Assembly (NCBI RefSeq): GCF_021155765.1
Contig: NC_060118.1
Coordinates: 13,404,146-13,468,145, forward strand
Direction of reading: 5' to 3'
Source of the DNA: Diprion similis
Taxonomy: Eukaryota > Arthropoda > Insecta > Hymenoptera > Diprionidae
DNA length: 64,000 nt
Each line of letters opens with the position of its first letter. The first letter of the stretch is position 1. Below, piece by piece: positions 31,801 through 58,856 of this stretch. The position numbers were made by a program, and so were the translations under genes. The notes beneath the pieces are model-generated. The model had not been told where the DNA came from. It was given only the letters and a program-made list of their open reading frames with translations, and did no database searches.

Positions 31801-34800
31801 TCATAAAAACGGGCTGAAAGGGTTTAGAGGATAAAAAAAAAAAGGAAGAAAACCTAAAAGTAGCCAACTACTTACAAGTTGAAACTCGTCGAACTTGGGC
31901 TGATAATGGTGAAATTTTGAAGGTCTAATTCACGGATTGTATTGAGTTTACGATTGAACTATAGGTTTTGCTTTGTTACTTTTTGACTTTGATCAGTTTT
32001 TTGAACTGTGTAAAATTGTATGATATTGAATATGCAAAGTATTGATGGCAATATCTGTTGTTGCAACAAGACGAATAGTGAAGTAACGGTGTAACACCTT
32101 GTTGCACTCATTTTTTTTTTTTTTTTAGTGACAATGTGAGGATAAAATGACATTTCTCATTGAACAATACAATCTACACATAAAAAGTTCAGAATGTAAT
32201 CCTAAAAAGAATTACAAGAAAGACTCACCTGATCCAGAATGTAGTTCCGTCGTCTCGTCGAGGCCAATTCGAGCAGTTTATTCAAAGCCCTGGTGCATTT
32301 GTCAATTAGAATTTCCCAGCGTCCATGATAGTTCCGCTTTCGTGGTAGCCCCATCACCTGGTGAAGAATAAAAATCAGTTAATTACTCCGATTGAATTAT
32401 CGATACAGACTTTGGCTCCCAGAGCTAATCAATTTAAATATAAGATTTTTTAAGTACACACGTGAGAAACAGAATATATCTTGCACGAACCTTCATTTTG
32501 TCGATCAGAGTGTTTGTTCCAAGTATGTTGTACATTTTCTCTGGATGTATAGCTGAATACTTCAAGGCCCATTGAGTTTTTCCAGCAGCAGGAAGACCGC
32601 ACATAAGTATCATTTCGCAGTCTTCTCTTCTTTCCGGTCTACGAGGTCCTGCGATTCTCTCTTGAGGATCAACCTCGCCTACAGAAATGTATCCTGGAAG
32701 GATCCGCTTGCTCCATGGCTCAACCTGCCCAAAGTTACACCCAAACGTGCAATTTTTGGTAAGAATATGGGGGTAGAGAGCAACGTCACCGATCTCCTCC
32801 TTGGAGATTGAAAACGCAATTCCCTGATCCTCCCCATTCACGGTGAATGAGAGGTCGATATTTGTCTCGCCCGTAAGATCCGCATAACACCCGACGACGT
32901 CATCCTTACCAAACTTCTTTCCATAATCCTTGAATTTACACTCTGTCGAAATCTTTCCGGTACCTCCATACCCGTAACTGAATTTCTCCTCTCCAAGTTG
33001 CATTGAGGTTCCGCCAACAGACCAACCAACGCGAACTACATGCGGATTTTCCTCGTCTTGCAAATTGATATTGCAATTCTCGAGAACTTTGGCTTCATAG
33101 TAGAGTTTTCCCATACGAAAACCAAACGACGCCCGAGCGCCAGCCCAAATGTAGCCAAAACCGTCATTGTGCATCGGAGTTGCAGTACAAAAATGATCCT
33201 TGTTAATCACCAAGTTTAAATCCGAATCATCTGTAATAAAAGTAAGGGTTTAAGCTCACAAATAGAAAGATCCGTTTAAAAATACGCACCTCAGGATTTT
33301 AGAAATACTATTAACTTTATAGAATAAACCGAGTTAACTAATGTTTTCACTTACACCAGGATAATACTACAGTTCCATCCTCAAGCTCTGGTTCATCATC
33401 AGGCTTTATAGGTGGTGGTGATCTGTACCGTTCCTGTTGTGGGCTTGAAGATCTTTTGCGCTTTCTGTCTCTACGATCTTTCCGGTCTCTATCCCTTGCT
33501 GCGTCGCTGTCTTCTTCGTTGTTGGCATCCTTCATTTCTACATCCTGAAAATTAATGAAAACATTAACGGTAATGCTCATGAGATGAGTGACTTGTTTCA
33601 GTAGACTTCAGAGATATTGCTGAAAAAAAAAGATCTATCGAAACCTTGAGTTGTTATTGATATCCGATTGCAAGTAAATTGCAAGCAGTACAATAAAAAT
33701 CAAACGATACTTACCGGCTCTTCTCGTTTCACCGTCCTCTCGTCGTAGTCATAGTATTCAATTTTTTCTTTATTATCTTCAGGTATATTTTCTTCCGGAT
33801 CCTCTTCCCCTGGAACAGTTGGTTCCGAGTTTACTGTTTTCGGAATCACATCCTTGTCTTCCTGTTCAGATTCCTCCTTGATTTGGACAGATTCAATCGA
33901 ATCTTTTGTATCAATCTCTTCCTTGTTGGACACACTGTCATCCATAGCTTCTTCCTTAGATTCTTCTTCGTTGTTTAATTCCTCTTCTTTAACCATTTCC
34001 TCCTTTACAGGATGAAGATTCTCATGATTTTGGTTCGTAGATTCAACTGGTTCATGTTCTTCGGGCGGTTCGGGACTATGTGAAACTTCGGTTACTGGAG
34101 ATGGTTCCTTAACAAATTCTTCTTGTGGCTGCTCTTCCGTTTCAGCAGTTGAATGCTCTTCTATATTTTCAGGCACATTCACTTCTTGTTCTGTAGGGGT
34201 TTCCGTAACGTCAGATTTTTCTTCGGATTGCGAAACAGGCTCTTCCGTTTGCTGCGGACTCTCCTCGACACTTGCAGGAACGGATTCAACATGTTCTTCA
34301 GGCTGTGCCTCCGTCTTCTCAGGACTAACCGCGTGTGATTCTTTCTCAGGAGATCTCGCGGAGCTATCTGTAATATTTTCAGGCGTCGCAGCTCGAGGAA
34401 GAACTTCGGGTTCTCGTACATCTGGTTCGGGAGCTGGTTCCTCAGGTACAGGGGAGGGCTTCCTCTGTTCTTCCGGTGGTGGAGCTTTGGCTGGAGAAGG
34501 CGATTGTTTCGCCCTCGCGGCTGCTCTCGAAGGTGTTTTGGAAGGGCTAGTAGCTGAAGCGCTTCGAGCAGATCGTCCCCCGGGTGTTTTAGCAGGTGGT
34601 GTAGGTTTTGCAGGCTCCGGCTCTGGCGACTGTTCGTGTGGTTGTGCCTCCCTGGAAACCACACCTTCCTCTTTGTTCGTCTCAGGAATCGTAGTTTCTT
34701 CGACTTCTAAATAAATGAGAAGTAACAAATGATATTGTAGCAGATATAACTGAGATTGAAATTGTTAAGTTTCCTGATAATAAGTAAAGTGAATATTTAA

Positions 34801-42800: not shown

Positions 42801-45800
42801 CTATTGGCGTGGTCTCATTACTTTGAAACTGGTACGTTTGTTGGCCAATGCCTCAGTTCGTGCGAAAACATTTTCGGAACTCCTTCTAATCGAATTGATG
42901 TATTCCGATGATGTTCGCGAGTCATCGGGCTCCGTGTTATCTCTCGAGGACTTCAATACCGTCGGCGGCATCGACACCAGCGATTCATTAGTTGGCTAAA
43001 GTAAAATAGGTATGGAGCTATAATATATCTTGTTTACATAGTACTAAATGCCTCTATTGTGCCTGATATATAGTTAACGACTTACAACTGAATTGTACTG
43101 GTGATGTGGCAGCTGCTCGTCTGAGCAGTGCGCTGTGGACTCACTGTTGCGCCAATTTTCGAGAAATCTTTGCGTCTCCAGGCCTTCGTCCCTGTAGCAA
43201 AGACAAGAATTATAGTTGTATGACAGAGTGGAAGGTATATAATCAGACACACAGTAAGTTGATCACTGAATGCTCACTACCTTGATTCGGACTCGTATCT
43301 CTTTCGTCGCGGAATTTTCTCCGTTATTAAATATTCTTCTGGAAAACTACAAACTGAACCCGCTCGTTGTTTCTGTTCCCGAATTCTACTGGCATACTCC
43401 ATAGCATCGTCCATAAAAAAGCACGAGTCAAGCGCCGTTGGTACAGGTTTAGACTCATCTTTGGCGGATCGTTGATCTCGTTCTGTCGATACGCTGTTTT
43501 TATCAACTTCCAAATGTCTCTCTTCTATTTCCGTACTGGAACCATTTGTACTACTTGTTGCCACATCCACTTCATCGCGTAAGCCCATCCGTTCAATGTG
43601 TACAAACGTTTCCTCGTCGCCATCCAAGTCACACTTAGATTCATCACCATCCAGCTGTCCGATACAAAGCGCCATTTCACAGCTGCTTACAGAGTTTGAA
43701 CTCCGGTGTCTAGAATTTTCAACTGGATCCAATCCAGAATTGGAGTTTCTCTCTGTTACCGATATTGGTACAGTGATTTCTATATTGCTTTCTAACGGAA
43801 CTAGAACGGGAGCAACAGCTTCTCTTGGTAAAGGATCTTGGCCCTGTTCAAATTGAGTTCGGTTTACGATATCATTGCTTTTGGCTGTGAAAGGACCTAT
43901 GGTCTCACCACTGCCGTCTGTGGGAATATTTGACGATAAAGATAAAGCCATGTCATCGATTGCCTCCTCCTCAGACTTGCAAATTCGCTTAGTATTGTTA
44001 CCGAGAGTTGTTGACTGTGCTTGATTATCCAATCCTTGGTCTAAGGATGCCCCCAGTGAGCACCTGGAGCTCTTAGATCGACCGATTGATCGCGATTGCT
44101 TACACTTCTCAAATATTACTTTCTGAATAGGCAGATGCGTCGACAGTGGTTGTGGCGGTGCCTGAGATTTGTATTTTCCTGTGCTACTGTGATCTGTATC
44201 TAACGATGACCCTGAAAACGTTCGCTTCGACCCGTCCAAGCTAAAACGCACATAATTGAAATTCCTACTGAATTCTCAGTGTATTTAGTTTATACATTTG
44301 AAAGAAATCCTATACTTACGGTTGATTCGGCTTTATACTGATTAACGATGCAAGATTAGGAAGGGTAGCTCGAAGATCTACAGTAGGAAGTCCACAGTAC
44401 CATCTGAGCTGGGCTATATTCTTATTCAACAAGTAAACTGCGTAATGGAACTGCAGCTTGTCTTTCCCTCGAGAAAACAACGGAAACCTAGATGGATTAA
44501 AGATCAATTATAGAAAGAGTAGAAAATGAAAACTGATAAGCCTTGATATTACGTACTGTCTGTCTTTATCAGGTATGTTTTCCGTGATGTGGTCAATGAC
44601 TTTACTCCTGGATGCGCAGTGAATAATCGGATATCTTGTAGGGATGTTCAGGAAGTTGGCGATCATTTGCGTTGTATGAGCAACTGATCCGAGAGCCACA
44701 GCTACTTGAGTATCTTTGCAGGAATCCAGCTCCTCGCTATCTGGTAGGTGGACGTTGTTTATCGTGTATCTATCATCCTCTAGCTACAATTAGAAACAGT
44801 TGACGTGAAGAACGGTTTGAAGTAATTGCAAAACACGCACAAATGTAAATTTCATGACTATTTTTACGTTCTGTGTTGTACCACGGGTTTTTACAATTAT
44901 CTAATAATCCGGGGGCGTATTCGTACTCGAGATATGGGATAGATGAGGCCGAGTTCCGATATCAGCTGCATTCGACGGTGAGCAAGCCGCGTTGTCGTAT
45001 ATGCATAAGCTTCTCTAATTTCCGTCTGACTTTGGCGCCACTCGCGGAGTCGTTCAATATCTCTGTTCAACTCCCTGTACTTTTCCATTAGTTCTGAACC
45101 TAGAGTGAATAAATGTACCGAATTTTTTAATTTCCATGTACATTCAAGCTCAGATTATGAATAAATTGTTAATAAAAACTTTGTTCGTCGGAGCAAAGCT
45201 TACCGTGATCTTGGTTCTCCTCTACTATGCTGGCATGCACCTGGTTCAGGGTCCTTATCTCTCCGACTTTTTTTATCCTTTCCTGATCCAATAGTTTCGT
45301 TCTGAATCTGGCGACTTCCAGCTCTTTCCTTATTCTCAGACTTTCAGCTCTCTTCTTTCTGCTGGCTTGTTTTGGTTGCAATAGCCTGTTGAGCGTAGAC
45401 TGAGGATAGACCACCTGGTTTTGAGATTCGTACCCAAGTGCAATTCTATCCCTCAGTGCTCGTGCAGCTTCTGACTGCTGCTTCAGCGCCTGCATCTTAC
45501 TTCTTAAGCTGCATAACTTGTTAACCGTGTAGCTATCCCTCACGTCTACAGTTTGGACACTCATGCCGATGTAGCGCTTTAATTCTGGGGGATTCAGGCA
45601 GCAGCATGGCGGTGTAAAATACCCGCCTTGAAGGTGAAATATTAACGAATTATCTTTCAGACAACTATCCAAGTTACTTGGAAGTTTTGTTCCCAGGTAC
45701 ACCAGACCCGTAAGCGACAACCGACATGCTAGTATAGTCACATCGGTACTCGTGCCTTGCACATCAGTTTTCCTCCACAGTCTGAGAACTATATCTGTGT

Positions 45801-46341
45801 TCAGGAAAAGGCAAGGAAACTTATTACACGTGTTGATTGATTATCTGCGACATTCATAACCATAAAACAGGTGCTCATATCGCTTGCCACTGTATTGAGG
45901 CTACCGTACTAACATAGTTTTGCGCTCACCGCTCGCAGCTGAGTGTCCTGTAGCATGGAGTACGGGAACATCTAAGCTGGCCCATTTTGGACAGGTATTG
46001 TCGATCGGCTCGCTCGAGTATAACGGCGACGACATGTTTGTGCGATGAAGAGTATAGTAAAACCATCCTTTGGCGTCAGTCGAATCCTCAACTTTCAAAT
46101 TGTAACCGATAACTTGTATCAAGTTCCTGAGTCGGAGCTATAATTGAATCAATCGATGGGTTTTATGGCGAGATGAAGCATTGCAGTGGGTTACTTATGG
46201 TGTAAAAAATTGAGTGCGTTATCAAAGTATTACCTGTTGTGTAGCAAGGGGAAGCCAGACTTTGTAACGTGGAGCAGTGCGAGGTTGAAGGGTTAGGTCA
46301 GAGTCTCTTATCAGAGGTCGTGCCTCCTGTAACTCCATCAT
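42801..46341 (-). CDS. UVRAG: UV radiation resistance-associated protein (UVRAG)
   Basis: Subunit of the class III PI3-kinase complex II (Vps34-Vps15-Beclin 1-UVRAG), acting in endosome traffic and autophagosome maturation. Nine coding exons: 46234-46341, 45930-46137, 45204-45794, 44927-45099, 44557-44783, 44320-44487, 43281-44240, 43086-43191 and 42801-42995, totalling 911 residues in consistent phase. A C2-like region spans about 35-190 ([35 protein letters not shown]). A coiled coil follows at about 195-330. The conserved BARA-like part holds [66 protein letters not shown] and [12 protein letters not shown]. After about residue 492 the tail is long and Ser/Glu-rich. The model is longer than human UVRAG (699 aa), mostly through this tail. 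Met1 or Met2 could be the start. Confidence 0.92.
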
Positions 46342-47212: not shown

Positions 47213-50200
47213 ATGACCATGGAGGTAGTAGAAAAATCAAAACGAGAGAATGACAGCCCAGTTTCAACGGCCGCTTCGATAAGCTGGAACGAGGAGGAGA
47301 AATCGGCTGGCCTGGGTAATTCGGATAAATCGGACACGCCGAACACCGACTCACCAACGAGGGATGATAACGCGCAGGTATTCGCCGAGGCTAACGACCC
47401 CGCGGTCTGCAGACCCTCCCCGTCGCGCTCGGATAACCCCGAGGAGGACGTCGAGGATGAGAAAGGTGTACCCCTCTCCGTATCCGACGACAGGACTGAG
47501 GTAGACAATGCCGAGGATCCGACAACCCCCTGCAAAGATGACGAGAGTCCGGGGTGCGAAGCGTCGTCGGGTAAAATCGTTGAAAAATTGACTGCGAAAA
47601 ACGAGACGGAAGATTCGCAGGAGGTTATCAGTGGGCCTGTTACACCCCAGCAACCCCTGACATTTACGATAAACTTCGGGGACGACAAGGAGGTCGACAC
47701 CGCGCGATATCGAAACCTCTTTGAAAGATACAACGCCAGACATAAACGGAACTCGTCAACCTCGAAGGTATGTATGAATGATGCATGTACGTGCACACCT
47801 CCTGCACGAGGCTGGAGTTAGTGACGTTACCGTATCGAAACTTTGAAAAAATCACTATTCTGGATCTTTAGAATAACTCAAAAAAGTTGGATTTACAAAA
47901 TCTGAGTTTGTTTGTGCTTTATAAACGGTTTTCCAAACTTCAGGTAATCCTCCAAAGTTGCTAAATAACGAGTTTTTCTAAAGATGCATCATTGCAATAA
48001 AGTTACAAACGTCAGCCTGATCCTCCTGTGCAAATTGGTCGCTTTTCATCCGTGCCCGTTTAAAAAATTCTTTAAATTTATATATCTTCTTTCATTTTCG
48101 ATAACATCTGATCGCTGCGTAGAGTAACGGAACGAACGAACGAACGAAAGTGCTCCGAGCACATTCATGCCTGTACACGTGCTTCGCATGTGTGTGGCGT
48201 ACGAGTACATATAGAGTACATTCGAATCCTCCACCGTAACGCACCTATTTACATAGAGAAATTTGCTTTAGTATTTTCAGCTCTAGTCCCCACCTCACCT
48301 CACGTCGCACTCGAGTACTCGTCTCCCTCTCCTCCCCACATTTTTTTCCTACTTTCTGTCTCCATAGCTGTTTCTTTGTTGGAAGAAAAAAAAAAAAAAA
48401 AGAAAACCTGACATTGTTCTATACTACCCATAACACGAGTCCGCCCGATTTACGAATCTATGAACAAAAAAAATATGAACGGTGTACAATTTTTCGTCAC
48501 CAGGTCGAGGTGAAGAGCAAGAAAGCGCCCGAGGCACCGGTCTTATCAAAACAGAAGACTCCAAGTGCGCACTCCGAAGGCTACTTCAGTAGCGATCCGG
48601 AGGACGACACTAGACGCAAAGCCGACCAACTGTCGCGGAAACTTAAGCAATTGGGTAAGAATCTCAAAAATAGACGGTAAACTGATGTAGATTTGCAATC
48701 GCCGTTATACATATATATATACATATATCTCCTCCGATAAAATAATTTCGATGCAATTGCACTTTCAAAGACAATGCGACATTTATTTCGTTTCCGCGCG
48801 TTGCGCGGGTGACTTTTCACGCAATCGACACATACATAGGATGTATGCTTACATAGAGGACTCGAGGTCCGCGTACAAGCGAATACCTATCTATAATCCA
48901 GTATCGCGAACCGTGAATCACGATGAAGTCATCTTCGCCATGAATGGTGGTGGTGCGGCCAATGCGTGGACACCTTATTGATATTCGTAAATCGTCGTCG
49001 GTCGGTCTCGCGGGCAGCGTATACGTACACACTATCATACAATGCACGCGTGTAATACACGCGTACAGCGACTAATACTCACCCATCTACATACCTATGT
49101 ACATACGTACGTATGTACATACATAGACTGCAACGCGCGTGGGTAGAGAGTCGCATGAGCGGTGTGCATACCTGCCGAAGAGCGCGATTGTATTTTAAAC
49201 TCAGTTCGATACAGATGCATGTCCGCGGCGCAGTGTACTTATAGTTTTCTCGGCCAATTCGTGATCTAATCACGTCGCAGTACCGCACAGTGGCTATACT
49301 AAAACGAGTAACTTACGCTTTTCAGGCCTGAAATCCGGTTCGAAAGTACCTGCAGTTCCCGAGAAATACGACGCGGGGATCATGTCTCGATCCTATTCGG
49401 AGCAGTCGACCCGGGAGCCGGAAATTTTGATCGCCCACGAAAGAGTCCGGTCGACTAGAGATAACCGACGGGCAAATCGTGCCGATATGTCTCTGGATCT
49501 TCATCATCCTGCAAACAATATCTACGACGGTCAGAGGAGGAGAGTAACGGCGCACAACTCGAGCCTACATCAGAACGGCAAGAATCGTGACCGGGAACCT
49601 GAGTTTGTGGAGACCGAGATGGTCCGATCGTCGATGCGCAATACTGAGATCAGATACGAGAGGAATTACACATCCGTGAACAATTCTACGGAAAGAGACA
49701 ACGGCTTTCAACGATTCGCGGATCTCGACGAAAAATTATCAAGCGGGAGCTCCGAGTCGGAACGGTTTTTTAATCGTGAAAACTCTAATAGGGATGAGCG
49801 TGAAATCTGCGGATCCGGACGGCGATCTCATATGGACAATGTTAATGGTCAGACAAACTTGGATGCGCTCGAGGTCAGCAATTTCGACGAGGGTTCCGAC
49901 GGTGCCGTTAGCGAGGCCGGAACCTATACCATACACAAAGATTATACGGACGAGGAAAAGGCCAGGATGGATATCGACAGGGTATTTGGTGTTGGCGTTG
50001 TTACGGAAGAAGAGTCCTCCGAGGCGTATGTCCACAGCTTCAAGGTTCGTCTGAATTATCATTCAAGTGATTGTAAATAATTGCATAGATTGATTGTATC
50101 GTCCGTTATCACTGATTATTGCAGATGAGTATATCTAGAGACAACAATTGGATATCCGAGTGGGCGACGCAGGTTGCAGAGCACAACTCATTACCGTCTG

Positions 50201-53200
50201 CAATTGGCGGGATGGATGTGATATCGAAAGGACTTATCTCACCACAAAGTCCACAGAGCCCTTCCAAAATACCCTCGCCGATTCATTCTCGCTCTCGGAG
50301 GCTGTCCAGGGGTCGTCAAGTCCGTACATATATATATATATTAAATTGTTTTTCAATCTCGTATGGAATTGAAAGGTATGCACTTGAACACTTGAACATT
50401 TTGTGCTTCTTCCAGGACCAAAGTGACAGCAGTTTGGAGACGGAATCGTATCTCCGTGTAAAGGCTACAGCAGCGGTATCACCGTCGTCACACAACGATC
50501 GGATGCTTGTTGATTCAGGGGGCGAGTCGGATGACGATACTAGCCGCAGCTACAACACACCTCCTCAAAGCTTGCAGCGAATAGGTTCAGCGCGTCGTGC
50601 AAGTTTATCTGACATGATATTTGCACGAAACAGCATTTCTGAGGGGCGACGTAGCGCTAGAGCCTACACTGGGTCTGATACAAGGCTGAGAAAGGACCGA
50701 ATTGTCACTTTACAAGAACCTCTGCGAAGTCCGACTCACATCTTGGCCCGCCTGCAGCTAGGAAGACGTAACAGCTCGCTTGACAGGAAGGAGTACGCCT
50801 CTGACACCCCAGAATCCAACTGCACTTCTGGAAGAAGCAGCTTGAAAAGCTATCTGGATGGTACCATGGTTCATCCCGGTAGTCCAGTTCTAGCACGGGT
50901 CAGAACACCTACTGGAAAACTCACCACCAACAGCCCTATTATGTCACGTAAAGAAATTGCACCAATGAGAACCAGTGAGCTTGCCAAAGCACCGCTACAG
51001 GCAAAAAACATTGGTTATTTTACTTGCACGGAAAACAGGTAATTTCTCTTTGTAAACAATTAGATGTTACTAAACTTGGTTGAATTCTATTCATACATGT
51101 TTGCTCATTGCAGTCCCTACATGCTGCGAAAGTCTCAGAGCACAACGAGTTACGGTCATCGGGAGGATTTCGGTCACCGAGATCGAAGTAGAGAATCTTG
51201 TGTAACGTCTGTGCAAAGCTTGCACCAAAATAGTCCCGTACCACGACGCAGCAATGATGTACAAAGATCTGCAAGCAGTGTATCAGTCAGAAATCCGCAA
51301 GTTACAAACCTGCTCACTAGGCGCGGTAGCTTCAACAACAACAACAACAATACAGTCAATGATAGAACGGCAATGGCAGCTATCATGGGGAAGTTTGCCG
51401 TTGCGTCAGACAGCAGTAGTGAGGCTGGAGATAAACCAGTTCTGAAATCACCTGTACCGCCTGTTTCATCAGGCATAAAACTGAACAGAGCATTTAGTAT
51501 ACGGAGAGCTAGGTAAGAAGCAGAAGAATTGTACTAGTAGCTATTTGAACAATTATTTCCTGAACCCCTGATGCCCAATGCTTTTGTAGACTAAATTGCG
51601 AGTATGAAACAACGCCGAATACGACACCAGAGGAACGGCGAAGGAAAGCACAGGTTGGCGAGATACGAGGAAGCCAGGTTTCGACACCGAGCCGGCAGAC
51701 ACCAACTCATCGTGGGAGGTCTGCTGGAAACACAGTCCTGAACAGCAAAGATACATTCAAAAGACCTGAGCCACCAAAACCTAGAGCACCGTCGATGTCT
51801 CGTACCGACAGTGGTAGGATTAGTACTAGGGCACCGAAAAATGTTAATCATGTAAGATGAATAGTTTTATGCTTAAAAACTTGCCATTCAATGTATATAA
51901 TTCGTTTGTGACAGAACAATGATTGCTTAATTATTTGGAAGTCAATTTTCACAACGTACTTCAATGCATTCTTCATAGGTGCAGCATTCGCGATCGAATC
52001 AAAAACTGACAAAAGATGCTCACAAAAAGCCTGGCAGAAGCAATTCTACCTTGACCTCAAAAGAGGTGGAATTTCAAAATTGGAAAAGACGTAAAAGTTA
52101 TGATCCAATGAAAGCCGCAGCTGAGGGAAAGAAGAAAATAGACTCCTCGAAAAAGCAGCCCAGTATTGAGGATGGCTCTCGCGGGTTGGTTTACAGTTCT
52201 TACCCATTATTTGTAATGACACAATGGTAGATCCTATAATAATATCAAACTAACTTGACAAATACTTATCTTACGTTACAGTTGCGAGAGCTCTGTTCTT
52301 AGATCAGCAAGTTTTCACGGCACTGGGGGAACTCTTTCACTCGCTGCTGAATGGTCAGAAAATGAGTTCACAGATTCCAATGAATACATTCGACCTCCTC
52401 CTCCTTCGAGCCCTCAGCTGGTGAGTGGAAAAGAGAATGTCAAAAGTACAGTGATCTTGTAATAATCGATATTGTTGAACATGGTGGAATTTTTCACTAA
52501 CAATCCCCATGAATTTGTTAGGGGAGTGACAGCGATTTTGAGACCTCGTCATATCTCCGCACAACTGAAAATGTCGTGTCTGCAATGTCAGCACGTATGA
52601 TTGTACGTCATCCACCTCCGGTTGATTCTGGGGGAGAAAGTGACGAGGACACGAGTCGTAGTCTCCATCGACCAACGCATAGAGGATCGTTGCACCTTTC
52701 TCGCGGCAGTGATACTGAAAGTAGTGACGAGCCACGTCCTCCGATCATTCAATCGCCTGTTGCAAACTTGAATCACTCCAAGATCATCCCTAGGTACCGT
52801 TTGGAGTCTTTTATAAAATAATATTACGCTTGTGCCATTCCTCCCATTACACTCAATTAAACCAAGATTACAATTTATTGCAGCATACGTAAAACTCGGA
52901 CTGGACCTCGAGATAAAAAAACACCAATATCTCTAACGAAACCAAAATCTTCACCACGGGATGCTAGAGGAAACGTTGACACAACAAGAGTTGTTGCAAG
53001 GACAGATTCGGGTCGATTTAGCACACGGGCACCGAAAAATATCAACGTAGTAAGAAAATTGTTTTAACATCATAAAGTAAAGTTCCCGATAGATGACTAT
53101 TCAGTTCTATAACTCATCTAACTGCCCGTAGAAATCAGGCAGAAGAAGCAATAGCGGTATAACCTAATTATTCATTTTTATAAAAAGAAAGGTATGTGTA

Positions 53201-53619
53201 TGGTTGTTTAGGTCACCCAGTCAAAGGGAAAGGACAATAAAAAATCTGCTGTCCCAAGTTCGAAAGAAGTGGAAATGCAAAACTGGAAGCGGCGAAAGAG
53301 CTATGATCCAATGAAAGCGGCAATGGAGGGTCGGCGAAAAGTTAATCAAACAAAGAGAAGTCCAAACGTGAATTCATCGCCAAGGTTAGTGATACACAAC
53401 TTGAATCATGCCATTCAAGTATTTTAAAAGAACAAATGACTTCAAATGTCAGACACTGATTTTCAATGTTGACATTTGCCACTTTCTATTAATCGAACAT
53501 TTCATTACTGCAGCCATGTACTCAGGTCGCAAAGTTTCCATGGCTCAGTGGGACTTGGTGTAAGTGACTGGAGTGACGAAGAATTAACAGTTTCGGCAGA
53601 TGAGGCATCGCTCTACTGA
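47213..53619 (+). CDS. CEP170: CEP170-family-like protein with duplicated C-terminal module
   Basis: Thirteen exons: 47213-47767, 48504-48654, 49326-50044, 50125-50319, 50416-51038, 51114-51512, 51590-51851, 51979-52184, 52282-52420, 52522-52793, 52884-53049, 53212-53384 and 53514-53619, giving 1,321 residues in frame. Similarity to the centrosomal, microtubule-associated CEP170 is local: FTINFGDDKEV then LFERYNARHKRN near residue 155-185; GTYTIHKDYTDEEKARMDID then RVFGV near 433-460; and WISEWATQVAEHN near 484-496. The rest is Ser/Arg-rich and probably disordered. No FHA domain is encoded: an in-frame stop lies upstream of the ATG. Residues about 541-1083 and 1084-1321 are related modules sharing VDSGGESDxDTSRS, TDSGRxSTRAPKNxN, QNWKRRKSYDPMKAA and LRSxSFHG. 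Exon 11 may end 3 nt earlier (53046). The family call is moderate; the gene model is strong. Confidence 0.6.
47768..48503 (+). other. Intron 1 of the CEP170-like gene
   Basis: AT-rich, with a short (GAAC)n-like tract near 48131-48147 and an A run near 48387-48401. No coding feature. Confidence 0.6.
48655..49325 (+). other. Intron 2 of the CEP170-like gene
   Basis: Contains TA-rich and TACG-type short repeats (about 48703-48730 and 49088-49125). No coding feature. Confidence 0.6.
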
Positions 53620-56575
53620 ACGAGTCTGAAAATGACTTTATATCGGTGGCACACGATTTTTGTGCACCAGGTCTCACGTAAGGCAGTGACAACAATTAAA
53701 ATTACGAGACTCTCATTTTCGTTAGAATCAAATAACAAAGATACGTGGTATAAAATGGATGGTCTTTCGACTGTTTCTTTCTCTCTATTTTCGTTTAGAT
53801 TCATGAATTTACATCTTATCGATCTGACGCTTGAATAATTTTTGTAAGCAATACCAATGCAATTATTTTATTTAGAGAGTATGTAGCGGAATACTGTCTA
53901 GTTTATAGCCACTTACAGTATCATACGTTCTTCATAATATGTCACGTGAACTTGATATATTACTATCAGTACATGGTATTTGATAAATGGTGATTCATTA
54001 TCACAATATATCAATTGATCTATTGAGTGCGGTTCACTCGTACTTTTTCCGTTTTCGTCTCATTTTGAATCTTCAGTGGCGAATGAAATACTCTTGTGTC
54101 TATGACGTATCATGTCGATACTCGCATTTGCAATTTAGGTATATAATGTATGGTCTTTAAGCGCCGCATGTCTCGCGCTCAAATATAGGTAATGTGTATT
54201 TATACGCAACTATTATTGCATCTGATTACTATCTTGTCCAATCTTTGTTCGACAATCAAGCATCGAAATCGAACAGCAAATTCCTCAGAAGGCCACTAAC
54301 ATCTAAGGGCCATACAATTCTTACAGAACCGATAGGTATAACTCACGTCCATGCAAATATTCCATATACGAGTGACAATTCAACGCCATGGCCTCGTAGT
54401 CCAATTTTTGTACTGAGTCAATTTATACATAAATTATTGAAAATGCTTATTTCCTGTTTTATACTGTGACATATACATTAATATTTGTATCTTATGGCTC
54501 TTCCCAAGTGCAATACATTTTTCAGTAGGTTAATGAAAAGTTGAGGAGATAAGTGACGGATAAATAATATTAGATCAAATATTACAAATCATTATTGTTC
54601 ATTACGTGGAAAACTATTTTGAACTTTGCATGTAAGCATTGTGTTGAGAATGATGGTTTAGTTTTTTCGGGCGATGATGCATGCAAGTTAATTACATAAA
54701 ATGTTATTGCCGCTCGTTGATAGACATACGTATACTATATTAATTATAGATAGTGAAAACTCGGTTGATTTTTTCCATTATAATAAATATAATTGAAAAG
54801 AATCTGCGACGTCCGTCCGCCCGCCCGAAGACAAACGCATTCAAATGAATTGAAAAATGTTTTATGTTTCAATATTTTTTCTATATATTTCAAATTTTAC
54901 GGGTGATTTATTCAAGAAAGATGTTAAAATTGTCGAGAATATATGGTACATGTTCTTGTTATGTCGTCAGAAATTTAATACGAGATCTAATTATCACAAA
55001 ATTAGTCTGGCGCATGTATCAGATGATGTGAATTGAGAGGATTATCCACTAGAAAAACGTAAATATTGTACTCTGATTAATCCAAACCATGTCAGTTGAA
55101 CGACGGCGCGGTAAGACCATCAGGTTTACAACCTACTTATTAGTAGTGAATCTGTCTATAAAACTATGAAAAATATGTTGTAGGTATTATGTATATACTA
55201 GAAGCGAGTCTACTGATCATGGGACTTGGTTTATCTGAAATGATATTTGTATGTGTATAACAGTCAGTGAACGCTTTCATTTGTAAAGTTGCATATATTA
55301 TATATCATATTATAGTATGTATACATCTCTGAATATATATATATAAATATAATAGTATCATAGTTCAGTATATACTTGTACAAAATCGGCGGATTATTAT
55401 AAGCATCATAATTCATACATACATAGAGAATATTTGTAGAGTAATTTTTCGGTACGGCTAACACGTTGTAGAATATAAGCACTTATTTATATTACAGTAT
55501 GCATATAATAGGTATATTATACAATGTATATACATTGAAAAAACTGATTGTTAGTTCAATTAAATGTTTCTTTGCGGGTGACGATATTGTATATTTTGCT
55601 GCCGTTAATAACTTTTTTTATTTTCTTGTATTCTTCATTTTGAAAGTACAAGAGGCTTAGCGAGTTGAAAATTTGTTTTTTGTCATTCGCAAAAAAACTT
55701 TTCATTGAATCAAATAACTCTTTCTCTCAATATAACTATATCGTCAGTTTGCTCGGCGATAAGACATCGAACGTCTCTCTAATTCTTCCTAATCACCGGG
55801 CTTCCCTCCAGTAGAGAGAAATAGAGGGTCACCTTTATTGTTACATCCAATTGATGATTCGCTCTTTATTTTTTTAAACATTACCCGATACAAAAAACTC
55901 ATGTATGCATATATGAATGTATGTAAAATACCGACTCCTGTATATTGTCCAAGTTGAAAACTATCAACTCTTTTTCTCTCTATAAAACAATTATTCCGTA
56001 GTCCGGATCTTTGTCTTTGTTAAGATATACTTGCCCGTCGTATACTGTCCATGCATTATAGAACATGCTTGCGATTTTGTAACACTCAAATATTTTGATC
56101 GCTAATTTATTATTAAAAAAAAAAAACAAAGAAAAACAAAACGAGTAAACACTACATTTTTCAATCCCAAGTGAAAATGTCGGTCATTGTAAGGCTAATA
56201 ATACTACGGTAATATAAATGTTTGTCGCAGACTGGATTATGTAACAGTTTTCATTCATTTACTCTAATATTTCCTATCCTATCAATTATAATCAATCATA
56301 AGTAATAACTTTTCTTCAAAATTTCAGGTGAGTATTTCTCGAATAAGTCTGTGCCGATTCAAAGTGTAGAGCCATTCAGTGATATTCAAAAGCTGGTCGT
56401 AACGCCCGCGTAAACGGCAGTTGGTACTGCGGTTGGCAACCGTGATTCACGATTCGTATACGTGGTACGTGTTTTGTGTAATGTAGAATATAGCTGCAAG
56501 GATATCAACGTACACGTTACAGGCTAAATTCAGGATATTTTCAGGCTACGGGGCGTTGAGAAGCCGATATTCAGT
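53620..56575. other. 3' UTR of the CEP170-like gene and intergenic region
   Basis: About 3 kb of strongly AT-rich sequence without a supported gene. AATAAA near 54782 is a possible plus-strand poly(A) signal. The last few hundred bases should hold the delta-COP promoter and 5' UTR. Confidence 0.5.
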
Positions 56576-58856
56576 ATGGTGAGTGATCGTCTTGATCGTT
56601 GCTAAAAATTATCACCAATGCCAGGTTGTGACGGGATGGGTAATCTGACTACCCTGCGGCTCGTCGGGATCCGTCACCCGCCACGACCCACCACTCATCT
56701 GCAGATGTCAAATTCTCAAGTGCCGATGGCCCTTGATGTCGATTTCCAAAAATCTCCTAATTAATACTTAGCCTGATTTATCGGGTCGATTGGGGTCACG
56801 ATTAACCTATTTTTTTTGTATTTCAGGTACTCATCGCTGCTGCAGTTTGCACCAAGGCAGGCAAGAGTAAGTAACTTTACTATACTTGCGTCAGCCAGTT
56901 TTCCACACACGCTGTTTACTGATGTAAGGAACCCTTCGTTTTTACCATGAGCAAAAGCTGATGTGTGTCCATTGTTTATTAGCCATCGTGTCCCGCCAGT
57001 TTGTCGAAATGACCAAGGCCAGGATAGAGGGTCTGCTTGCCGCCTTCCCAAAATTGATGAGCACCGGCAAACAGCACACGTTTGTTGAAACTGAATCTGT
57101 GCGATACGTTTATCAGCCATTGGAGAAACTTTATATGCTACTCATTACTACTAAGGCCAGCAACATTTTGGAGGATTTGGAAACCCTCAGACTTTTTGCG
57201 AGAGTGGTAAGTAGAGCTGTATCCTGACACAACAGTAGTATCGACTATATAACTAATATCTACGTTTATCTATTGCATCGTAGATTCCAGAGTACTGCAA
57301 ATCGATGGAGGAAGTTGAGATAGCTGAGAATGCCTTTAACCTCATATTCGCCTTTGATGAAATCGTAGCCCTAGGATACAGGGAAAGCGTCAATTTGGCA
57401 CAGATCAGAACTTTCGTGGAGATGGACTCGCACGAGGAAAAGGTCTATCAAGCTGTTAGGCTGACTCAAGAACGAGAGGCCAAGAACAAAATGAGGGAAA
57501 AGGCCAAGGAACTTCAAAGACAGAGAATGGAGGCCAACAAGAAAGGGGGGGTCAAGGGTCCTGGCTTCGGCGGCGGCTATGGATTCACATCCAGTCCATC
57601 GGTTGGTGATTCTGCAAATTTCGTCCCAGAGCCTGTGAAACCAGCTTACACTGCACCACAGTATGTATACCTTTAATCAGTGAATCCAAATCTGCAATTC
57701 TTATTTTTATCAACAATTCAACCCATTTGCAGAAAGCCAACATCTGCTGGTCCCCGTGCCATGAAGCTCTCTGGAAAATCGCGTGACGTTGACTCTTTTG
57801 TAGACCAGTTGAAGGAAGAGGGAGAGAACGTGACCACCGCGTCATTGGCCGCTCCTGGTGTTAAAACTGTGCACACTTCGCCGCAAATCATTAACACAGA
57901 ACCGTGAGTGTAAAGTTTTTTTGAGTTTAAATATTGTCAATAGTTGAGCGATTAATATCTAAATATGTTTTGAAGGGTGCACTTGAGACAGGAGGAGCGA
58001 CTGACTGTCCGCGTGGGCCGTGACGGAGGAGTTCAACATTTGGAACTCCACGGACTGGTCACCCTGCATATCTCAGATGAAAAATGGGGATGCATACGTG
58101 TGCAGCTAGAGAACAAAGATACACGCGGTGTGCAACTCCAGACACATCCCAATGTCGATAAGGAGCTGTTCAGGACACAGGGACAGATTGGACTTAAGAA
58201 CCCAGCAAAACCATTCCCTCTGAACACAGATGTTGGCGTGTTGAAATGGCGTTTGCAGGCGCAAGACGAATCAGCTTTACCAATTTCGAGTTAGTTTCAT
58301 AGCAAGTATATTGCCATTTGCCAAAACAGTCGAATCTGTGAAATGAATATAATTCTGTTTTCTAGTAAATTGCTGGCCATCCGAAAACGGCGAAGGTGAC
58401 TGCGACGTGAATATTGAATACGAATTGGAACAGGACAATCTCGAGCTGAACGATGTTCAAATAAATATTCCTCTACCTATTGGGGCCACCCCTGTTGTTG
58501 GAGAGTGCGATGGCCAATATACGCACGAGGCACGACGAAATACATTGGTGTGGTCACTACCACTAGTGGATGCTTCAAGCAAATCTGGATCAATGGAATT
58601 TTCGGTTCACTCCTCTACACCGACAGACTTTTTCCCCCTACAAATCTCCTTCTCCTCTAAGACCCCATACGCAAGCATCAAGGTAAAGATTTCGACCTTT
58701 GTGTGGCTAATCATTAGTATTTGTCAGGAGCCGATTCAAAACTTTGTACCGTGTGATTTCTTACAGGTTAATGACGTCCTTCTGGTCGAGGATGATAGTC
58801 CAGTCAAGCATTCCGTAGAGACGGTATTTTTTACCGAGAATTATGAAATTGTTTAG
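56576..58856 (+). CDS. ARCN1: Coatomer subunit delta (delta-COP, archain)
   Basis: Subunit of the COPI F-subcomplex that coats retrograde Golgi-to-ER vesicles. Exons 56576-56578, 56827-56866, 56983-57206, 57284-57660, 57733-57903, 57976-58289, 58366-58682 and 58767-58856 give 511 residues, the same length as human archain. The start ATG is alone in exon 1 (ATG|GTGAGT). An N-terminal longin domain ([46 protein letters not shown]) is followed by a charged helical linker ([18 protein letters not shown]) and a Gly-rich hinge. The mu-homology domain covers about 272-511 ([56 protein letters not shown]). The protein ends FFTENYEIV. Confidence 0.97.

Follow-up and report, generated by a model that had tools for sequence, protein, structure and literature searches.

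Tandem duplication of an exon block with paired DSGxxS motifs and a predicted helix-turn-helix in a tentatively CEP170-related gene of Diprion similis

Background

CEP170 and CEP170B combine an N-terminal FHA domain (PF00498) with a CEP170_C region (PF15308), and CEP170, according to excerpts of one report, binds microtubules, recruits Kif2b and is phosphorylated by TBK1 in vitro at 12 serines and a threonine (PMC4682058). Here we analyze a gene of the hymenopteran Diprion similis that is CEP170-related at best, this relation being a lead and not a basis for classing the gene as a member of the CEP170 family. The gene occupies positions 47213-53619 on the + strand of a stretch of 64,000 nucleotides (contig NC_060118.1, 13,404,146 to 13,468,145; hereinafter the window, to which the coordinates below refer). 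It shares with CEP170 and CEP170B a Ser-rich composition of low hydropathy, and its exons 3 and 4 include a stretch (GTYTI..ID.VFGV ... W.S.WA...A.H) that aligns with an unconfirmed piece of human CEP170; it differs from them in that the window contains no FHA match, the protein has no PF15308 match and the C-terminal module is present in two copies. Our best reading of the locus, to which we assign a probability of about 0.5, is that this module would be a duplicated, phosphorylation-controlled docking and turnover unit in a CEP170-related scaffold of the centrosome or microtubules.

Duplication of exon blocks is a familiar event in genes for folded domains. The present case shares with tandem duplications between introns of equal phase (0-0 units) a 543-codon block flanked by phase-0 introns, collinear exons and equal phases, and departs from them in that most of the copied unit is low-hydropathy sequence of regulatory appearance, without a recognized folded domain, and in that one copy has an extra symmetric exon. 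As a type of event, the duplication is ordinary; what lends it moderate interest is the content of the unit, namely a predicted helix-turn-helix and DSGxxS sites that occur in pairs, both in a protein with no Pfam match. The DSGxxS sites invite comparison with substrates of SCF-beta-TrCP/Slimb such as beta-catenin, Snail, FGD1 and PRLr (excerpts of PMC5954166), with which they share the exact DSGxxS form, the low-hydropathy context and phosphorylatable residues nearby; by contrast with these substrates, the four sites found here are putative and are distributed over two duplicated modules.

Two collinear copies of one exon block

The exons of the gene, rebuilt independently from the sequence, number 13 and form a single open frame of 1321 codons with a TGA stop at 53617-53619; the 12 introns are all GT-AG. 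Within this gene, the presence of two collinear copies of one exon block, consisting of exons 5, 7, 8 and 9 and of exons 10, 11, 12 and 13, is confirmed. Copy A comprises exon 5 (50416-51038, phase 0 to 2), exon 6 (51114-51512, phase 2 to 2), exon 7 (51590-51851, phase 2 to 0), exon 8 (51979-52184, phase 0 to 2) and exon 9 (52282-52420, phase 2 to 0), whereas copy B comprises exon 10 (52522-52793, phase 0 to 2), exon 11 (52884-53049, phase 2 to 0), exon 12 (53212-53384, phase 0 to 2) and exon 13 including the stop codon (53514-53619).

The similarity of the two copies was assessed by comparing Smith-Waterman scores with those of 2000 shuffles. Copy A (exons 5-9) aligned with copy B (exons 10-13) at a score of 270, compared to 51.5 +/- 8.3 for shuffled sequences, and none of the 2000 shuffles reached the score of any individual exon pair: exons 5/10 scored 100 (shuffle mean 33.5, 11.5 standard deviations above), exons 7/11 scored 78 (31.8, 8.0 standard deviations), exons 8/12 scored 155 (31.4, 21.2 standard deviations) and exons 9/13 scored 61 (20.5, 9.3 standard deviations). 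Similarity no better than that of shuffled sequences, the outcome that the original prediction had named as contrary to a duplication, was accordingly not what we observed. For exon 6, no counterpart was found in copy B, its scores with exons 10 and 11 being reached by 296 and 1572 of the 2000 shuffles, respectively. This symmetric exon, which encodes an asparagine run, is a candidate for a gain in copy A, a loss from copy B or alternative splicing.

The introns provide supporting evidence. Introns 4 and 9, the boundaries of the block, are both in phase 0; introns 6 and 10 are in phase 2, introns 7 and 11 in phase 0, and introns 8 and 12 in phase 2. By eye, introns 7 and 11 interrupt the protein after the identical residue, following RAPKNxN, the pair 8/12 is offset by 3 residues relative to VLRS, and the pair 4/9 by one residue. 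Phase agreement by itself is weak evidence, the chance of four matches being about 0.03 given the phase frequencies of the gene (phase 0, six; phase 1, one; phase 2, five of 12 introns). Exons 5-9 total 1629 nucleotides, that is, 543 codons between phase-0 introns, and copying of the block therefore preserves the frame.

The original prediction, which had delimited the region at 50416-53619, agrees with the independent model, where exon 5 begins and the stop codon in exon 13 ends at these positions, and its phases for the intron pairs 6/10, 7/11 and 8/12 are the same as ours. The two modules and the order of their parts also stand as described there; one correction is that the copies differ in their number of exons, exon 6 being an additional symmetric exon of copy A, where exon 5 is also longer. 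The inference drawn there, that a genomic block was duplicated and that the repeats are not convergent low-complexity sequence, is upheld by the four collinear exon pairs, the shared phases, the position of introns 7 and 11 at the same residue and the 543-codon 0-0 unit.

Conserved blocks and the predicted helix-turn-helix

For a residue-by-residue comparison, copy A was trimmed to the initial portion of exon 5 and to exons 7-9 (with the last residues of exon 9 taken off), leaving exon 6 and the remainder of exon 5 outside the alignment. In this alignment, 96 of the 224 aligned positions are identical and cluster in runs, the longest of which spans 15 residues and is reached by none of 5000 column shuffles. 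The conserved blocks are, in order, SDSxxETxSYLR, VDSGGESDxDTSRS, RTDSGRxSTRAPKNxN, SKEVExQNWKRRKSYDPMKAA and VLRSxSFHG, the last of these being VLRSASFHG in copy A (52295-52321, + strand) and VLRSQSFHG in copy B (53518-53544, + strand). The two copies provide a built-in comparison of which residues were kept, and this comparison singles out two features that go beyond the original prediction, a predicted helix-turn-helix and the paired DSGxxS sites.

The helix-turn-helix corresponds to the QNWKRRKSYDPMKAA block, which also harbors the 15-residue run and is represented by SKEVEFQNWKRRKSYDPMKAA in copy A (52057-52119, + strand) and SKEVEMQNWKRRKSYDPMKAA in copy B (53260-53322, + strand). Exons 12 and 8 were modeled with AlphaFold2, in each case with the other exon as the only additional row, and the models predict for both copies a first helix, S-K-E-V-E-x-Q-N-W-K-R-R-K, a turn, S-Y-D, and a second helix that begins at the proline of PMKAA, such that the basophilic RRKS site sits at the predicted turn. 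The ten-residue block means of the predicted local distance difference test score (pLDDT) are 80-89 over the first helix and the turn, and lower over the second helix (84 falling to 67; 75). A binding or phosphorylation role for this motif, as originally suggested, is plausible, and the predicted helix-turn-helix and the paired DSGxxS sites make the suggestion more specific. A literature text search for the peptides SYDPMKAA, KRRKSYDP, NWKRRKS and RKSYDPMK found them in none of the papers searched. A match to Hemingway/CFAP97 (PF13879) was considered and rejected: among 5 pieces, it was obtained with a single piece of copy A (14 bits, E 0.091, cut-off 25.6) and with neither piece of copy B.

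Paired DSGxxS sites

Motif counts identified four DSG tripeptides in the protein, all of them inside the modules, two per copy, and all fitting DSGxxS (amino acids 573, 954, 1118 and 1215). On the + strand, the first and second degron-like sites of copy A are DSGGES (50512-50529) and DSGRIS (51807-51824), and those of copy B are DSGGES (52624-52641) and DSGRFS (53005-53022). All four are exact matches to the consensus of the beta-TrCP/Slimb motif, which in its classical form, as given in excerpts of two reports (PMC5954166; PMC5514133), is DSGxxS phosphorylated at both serines. The same genome yields one match to the beta-TrCP D-domain (E 2.1e-23). Furthermore, DSGGESD[DE]D fits the casein kinase 2 consensus at both serines.

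Four DSGxxS sites were reached in none of 5000 shuffles of the whole protein. Since the two copies are relatives of each other, the sites are fairly counted as two per ancestor. Two sites were reached in 4 of 20000 shuffles when only copy B was shuffled and in 11 of 20000 when only copy A was, in 40 of 20000 when copy A was removed from the protein, and in 58 of 20000 when copy B was removed (122 of 20000, the worst case, under local shuffling). Among the 35591 residues of all stop-to-stop frames of 60 or more residues in the window, DSG..S occurs only at these four positions. Neither copy has lost any of the eight fixed letters of the two sites.

Relation to CEP170

The part of the gene that precedes the duplicated block consists of exon 1 (47213-47767, + strand), defined by an open frame and a GT donor, with the start ATG picked by inspection; exon 2 (48504-48654), delimited by AG and GT with the frame kept; exon 3 (49326-50044), the 3' end of which encodes GTYTI..IDRVFGV; and exon 4 (50125-50319), which carries NNWISEWATQVAEHN and, as SKIP at amino acid 522, the single SxIP motif found in the protein. 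SxIP is the EB1-binding motif. An EB1-type reading of PQSPSKIPSPIHSRSRR in exon 4 was nevertheless dropped, one motif being present compared to 0.58 expected and 2249 of 5000 shuffles reaching this count.

The human CEP170 sequences used for comparison are pieces that we take to represent that protein; three of them are confirmed as CEP170 by Pfam or PDB and, as a positive control, pieces match PF15308 at 8e-35 and 4e-56. Approximately 60 residues of exons 3-4 align with the GTYTI..VFGV..WVSQWA piece at a score of 70, compared to 39.2 +/- 5.5 for shuffled sequences (reached by none of 1000 shuffles and, in a second run, by 3 of 10000); the GTYTI..VFGV piece is itself without independent confirmation (no Pfam family matched) and, as a query against the genome, retrieved nothing at E<=10, not even the present gene. 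The genome searched in this work amounts to 269 Mb in 60 contigs.

Searches against profiles returned little else. The whole protein has no Pfam match at E<=10, and PDB sequence searches with copy B and with exons 1-4 gave no match at the same threshold. The FHA profile (E<=0.01) has 18 matches in the genome and none in the 64 kb window, the nearest on the same contig (C14) being about 0.6 Mb away, with the caveat that an FHA domain split across small exons could escape this search. The human CEP170 FHA domain, which matches 4jon_A at 5e-79, has its best genome match (E 0.0018) on the same contig, about 5.5 Mb away, and the similarity of exons 1-2 to an FTIEF piece of CEP170 was reached by 222 of 1000 shuffles. 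The label CEP170-like, as originally given to the gene, has partial support: some 60 residues of exons 3-4 resemble a human piece, but the protein has no Pfam match, the window contains no FHA match and the same human piece has no match in the genome. Transfer from CEP170 of a centrosome or microtubule setting with phosphorylation appears reasonable by analogy. Drosophila Prd1 was dropped as a potential relative, being PLEKHM2-like with a PH domain in excerpts of PMC6126864. Our literature search, which covered mostly titles, found no title on the control of a CEP170-related protein in insects or arthropods and did not find 'centrosomal protein of 170' together with Hymenoptera; CEP170 and beta-TrCP occur together in the text of nine papers.

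As for the origin of the module itself, it could be a copy of the CEP170 C-terminal region (PF15308) that has lost the coiled coil, with exon 10 corresponding to the DTTLIL..TE.V / ESD.DT part and exons 12-13 to the SGARLV..SP / HGS..W part. We regard this possibility as worth keeping in view, if somewhat doubtful. Exon 10 resembles one human piece (r2) at a level reached by 12 of 1000 shuffles, which is weak. A profile of the module resembles another piece (r3), and of the shuffles scored, 8 of 997 and 9 of 994 did as well (3 and 6 of 1000, respectively, gave no row). However, many comparisons were made, so that values near 1% carry little weight, and most of the others are not significant: the whole protein against r2 and r3 (279 and 742 of 1000 shuffles), exon 5 against r2 (211 of 1000) and ten plain alignments of the module to r3 (18 to 765 of 1000 full shuffles, mostly not significant). 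Moreover, neither the whole protein nor any of 5 pieces matched PF15308 (CEP170_C) at E<=10 with the HMMER speed filters on. In the genome, PF15308 gave no match at E<=0.001, which does not prove absence given that 14 controls in the same search were also empty. Firm homology of the module to CEP170_C was rejected. The human pieces, covering only part of the human protein, do not show the QNWKRRKSYDPMKAA block.

Proposed function and alternative explanations

The ancestral exon block of a low-hydropathy protein, now represented by exons 5-9 and 10-13, was duplicated in tandem inside the gene with the frame kept; under the reading that we prefer, each resulting module would be a phosphorylation-controlled unit. 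The basic helix-turn-helix SKEVExQNWKRRK-SYD-PMKAA might serve as a partner- or microtubule-docking element with the basophilic RRKS at its turn; the pair of DSGxxS sites on its N-terminal side might be phosphodegrons read by SCF-beta-TrCP/Slimb. Two docking points together with four degron-like sites would then confer higher avidity and a sharper phosphorylation-dependent removal of the CEP170-related scaffold. In this case, the helix-turn-helix and the DSGxxS sites could offer a first handle on the control of a CEP170-related protein in arthropods.

A number of observations weigh against this interpretation. The DSGxxS motif is short; the wider form DSG.{2,3}[ST] attains four occurrences in 3 of 5000 local shuffles; and the hydrophobic residue that is favored after DSG is replaced here by G or R. 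Phosphorylation sites of other types are in no more than mild excess in the whole protein, with 6 RRxS-type sites compared to a mean of 2.9 (327 of 5000 shuffles) and 49 casein-kinase-2-type sites compared to 38.5 (142 of 5000). As to the structural prediction, the two models average a pLDDT of 72.3 and 69.0 overall, their second helix is less certain and differs in length (16 and 8 residues), and the models, built with no control sequence alongside, use the same two rows and are not independent. Conservation was judged from two paralogous copies of one species, and the relation to CEP170, from which the place of action is taken, is a lead.

The principal alternative is that the module acts in docking only, the basic helical hairpin binding microtubules or one partner and being doubled for avidity, with the DSGxxS sites incidental to clusters of acidic and basic phosphosites. 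The location of the longest identical run in the helical block speaks for it, as do the net charges of copies A and B (+35 and +12, compared to -22 for exons 1-4) and the microtubule binding and Kif2b recruitment of CEP170 (excerpts of PMC4682058). Against it stands the retention of all eight fixed DSGxxS letters in both copies when overall identity is only 96 of 224, and we consider docking alone unlikely, even if it is a serious competitor. A bolder version of the preferred reading, which seems to us distinctly improbable, is that an arthropod scaffold derived from CEP170 and lacking an FHA domain came to carry two copies of an entire phospho-switch, made up of an undescribed docking helix-turn-helix, QNWKRRKSYDPMKAA, with a phosphosite at its turn, and two Slimb degrons. 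If this were the case, the protein would possess four degrons and two clamps, which would provide for switch-like removal from centrosomes or microtubules, and the QNWKRRKSYDPMKAA helix-turn-helix would represent a new small domain family.

Two further alternatives concern the duplication as such. The joined 13-exon model comes from genomic sequence, and the blocks could in principle lie in a pair of neighboring genes or in alternative transcripts and never be joined in one protein; we consider this very unlikely, since the 13 exons, in matching phases, form a single frame without an internal stop, exon 9 closes at the donor gtgagt with no stop codon, and only 101 bases separate exons 9 and 10. 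Convergent Ser/Arg-rich low-complexity repeats without any duplication can be practically dismissed: Ser and Arg do account for 14.6% and 9.6% of the protein, but the shuffles that failed to match the exon-pair scores preserve composition, the similarity is collinear and bounded by exons, and in an all-against-all comparison of the 13 exons (78 pairs, 300 shuffles each) the pairs 5/10, 7/11, 8/12 and 9/13 rank at the top (z 8.6-23.2), with unrelated exons showing nothing of comparable size (next z 3.9).

Age of the duplication and search for further copies

The divergence of the two copies indicates that the duplication is old, because the paired introns are dissimilar, 16 of the 26 four-fold sites in the five conserved blocks differ and the nonsynonymous divergence (dN) is 0.145. 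The introns are no more alike than shuffled sequences (scores reached by 60 to 229 of 300 shuffles), and the NG86 method returned no value for synonymous divergence (dS), which fits saturation. In the five blocks, 66 of the 78 residues are identical between copies A and B, 38 of these 66 are encoded by different codons, and the differences at codon positions 1, 2 and 3 number 16, 8 and 45, a clear third-position bias. At the sequence level, this pattern demonstrates selection on the short blocks, whose amino acids both copies kept as divergence accumulated at synonymous sites, elsewhere in the block and in the introns. A hand estimate with an assumed insect synonymous rate puts the duplication on the order of 100 million years ago or more, and is too rough to serve as a date.

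No further copy was detected in the genome. Both matches of exon 12 at E<=0.001 and both matches of exon 10 at E<=10 are the present gene, as are four of the six matches of exons 11-13 at E<=10, the other two having E values of 1.4 and 5.98; the search with exons 11-13 did not list the known copies, exons 7 and 9, and short or decayed further copies may escape it. A decayed third copy within the protein was rejected after profile scans of exons 1-4 (best score -1.9 bits) and of the exon 5 tail and exon 6 (0.6 bits); a 56.6-bit match in the latter scan is due to the head of exon 7, which is itself part of the profile. Scans of prokaryote, viral and genome contigs for relatives yielded none that could be confirmed.

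Genomic neighborhood

The upstream neighbor (43277-46137, - strand) is UVRAG/VPS38-like by eye, and one of its four open frames matches the Pfam family ATG14/Vps38 (E 6e-5, below the curated cut-off); these frames end, by eye, about 1 kb before exon 1. The downstream neighbor (56560-57676, + strand) resembles the coatomer delta subunit by eye, its two frames having no Pfam match at E 0.01. At 32434-33249 (- strand), a SPRY match is accompanied by a sub-threshold AAA_33 match, a combination that we take to be the one found in hnRNP U-like proteins. Finally, the genome contains telomere-like TTAGG arrays, a five-unit pattern matching 10300 times in the forward and 6745 times in the reverse orientation, with the first listed match at base 5, the start of contig C1; the arrays are in keeping with an arthropod, TTAGG being an arthropod telomere repeat.

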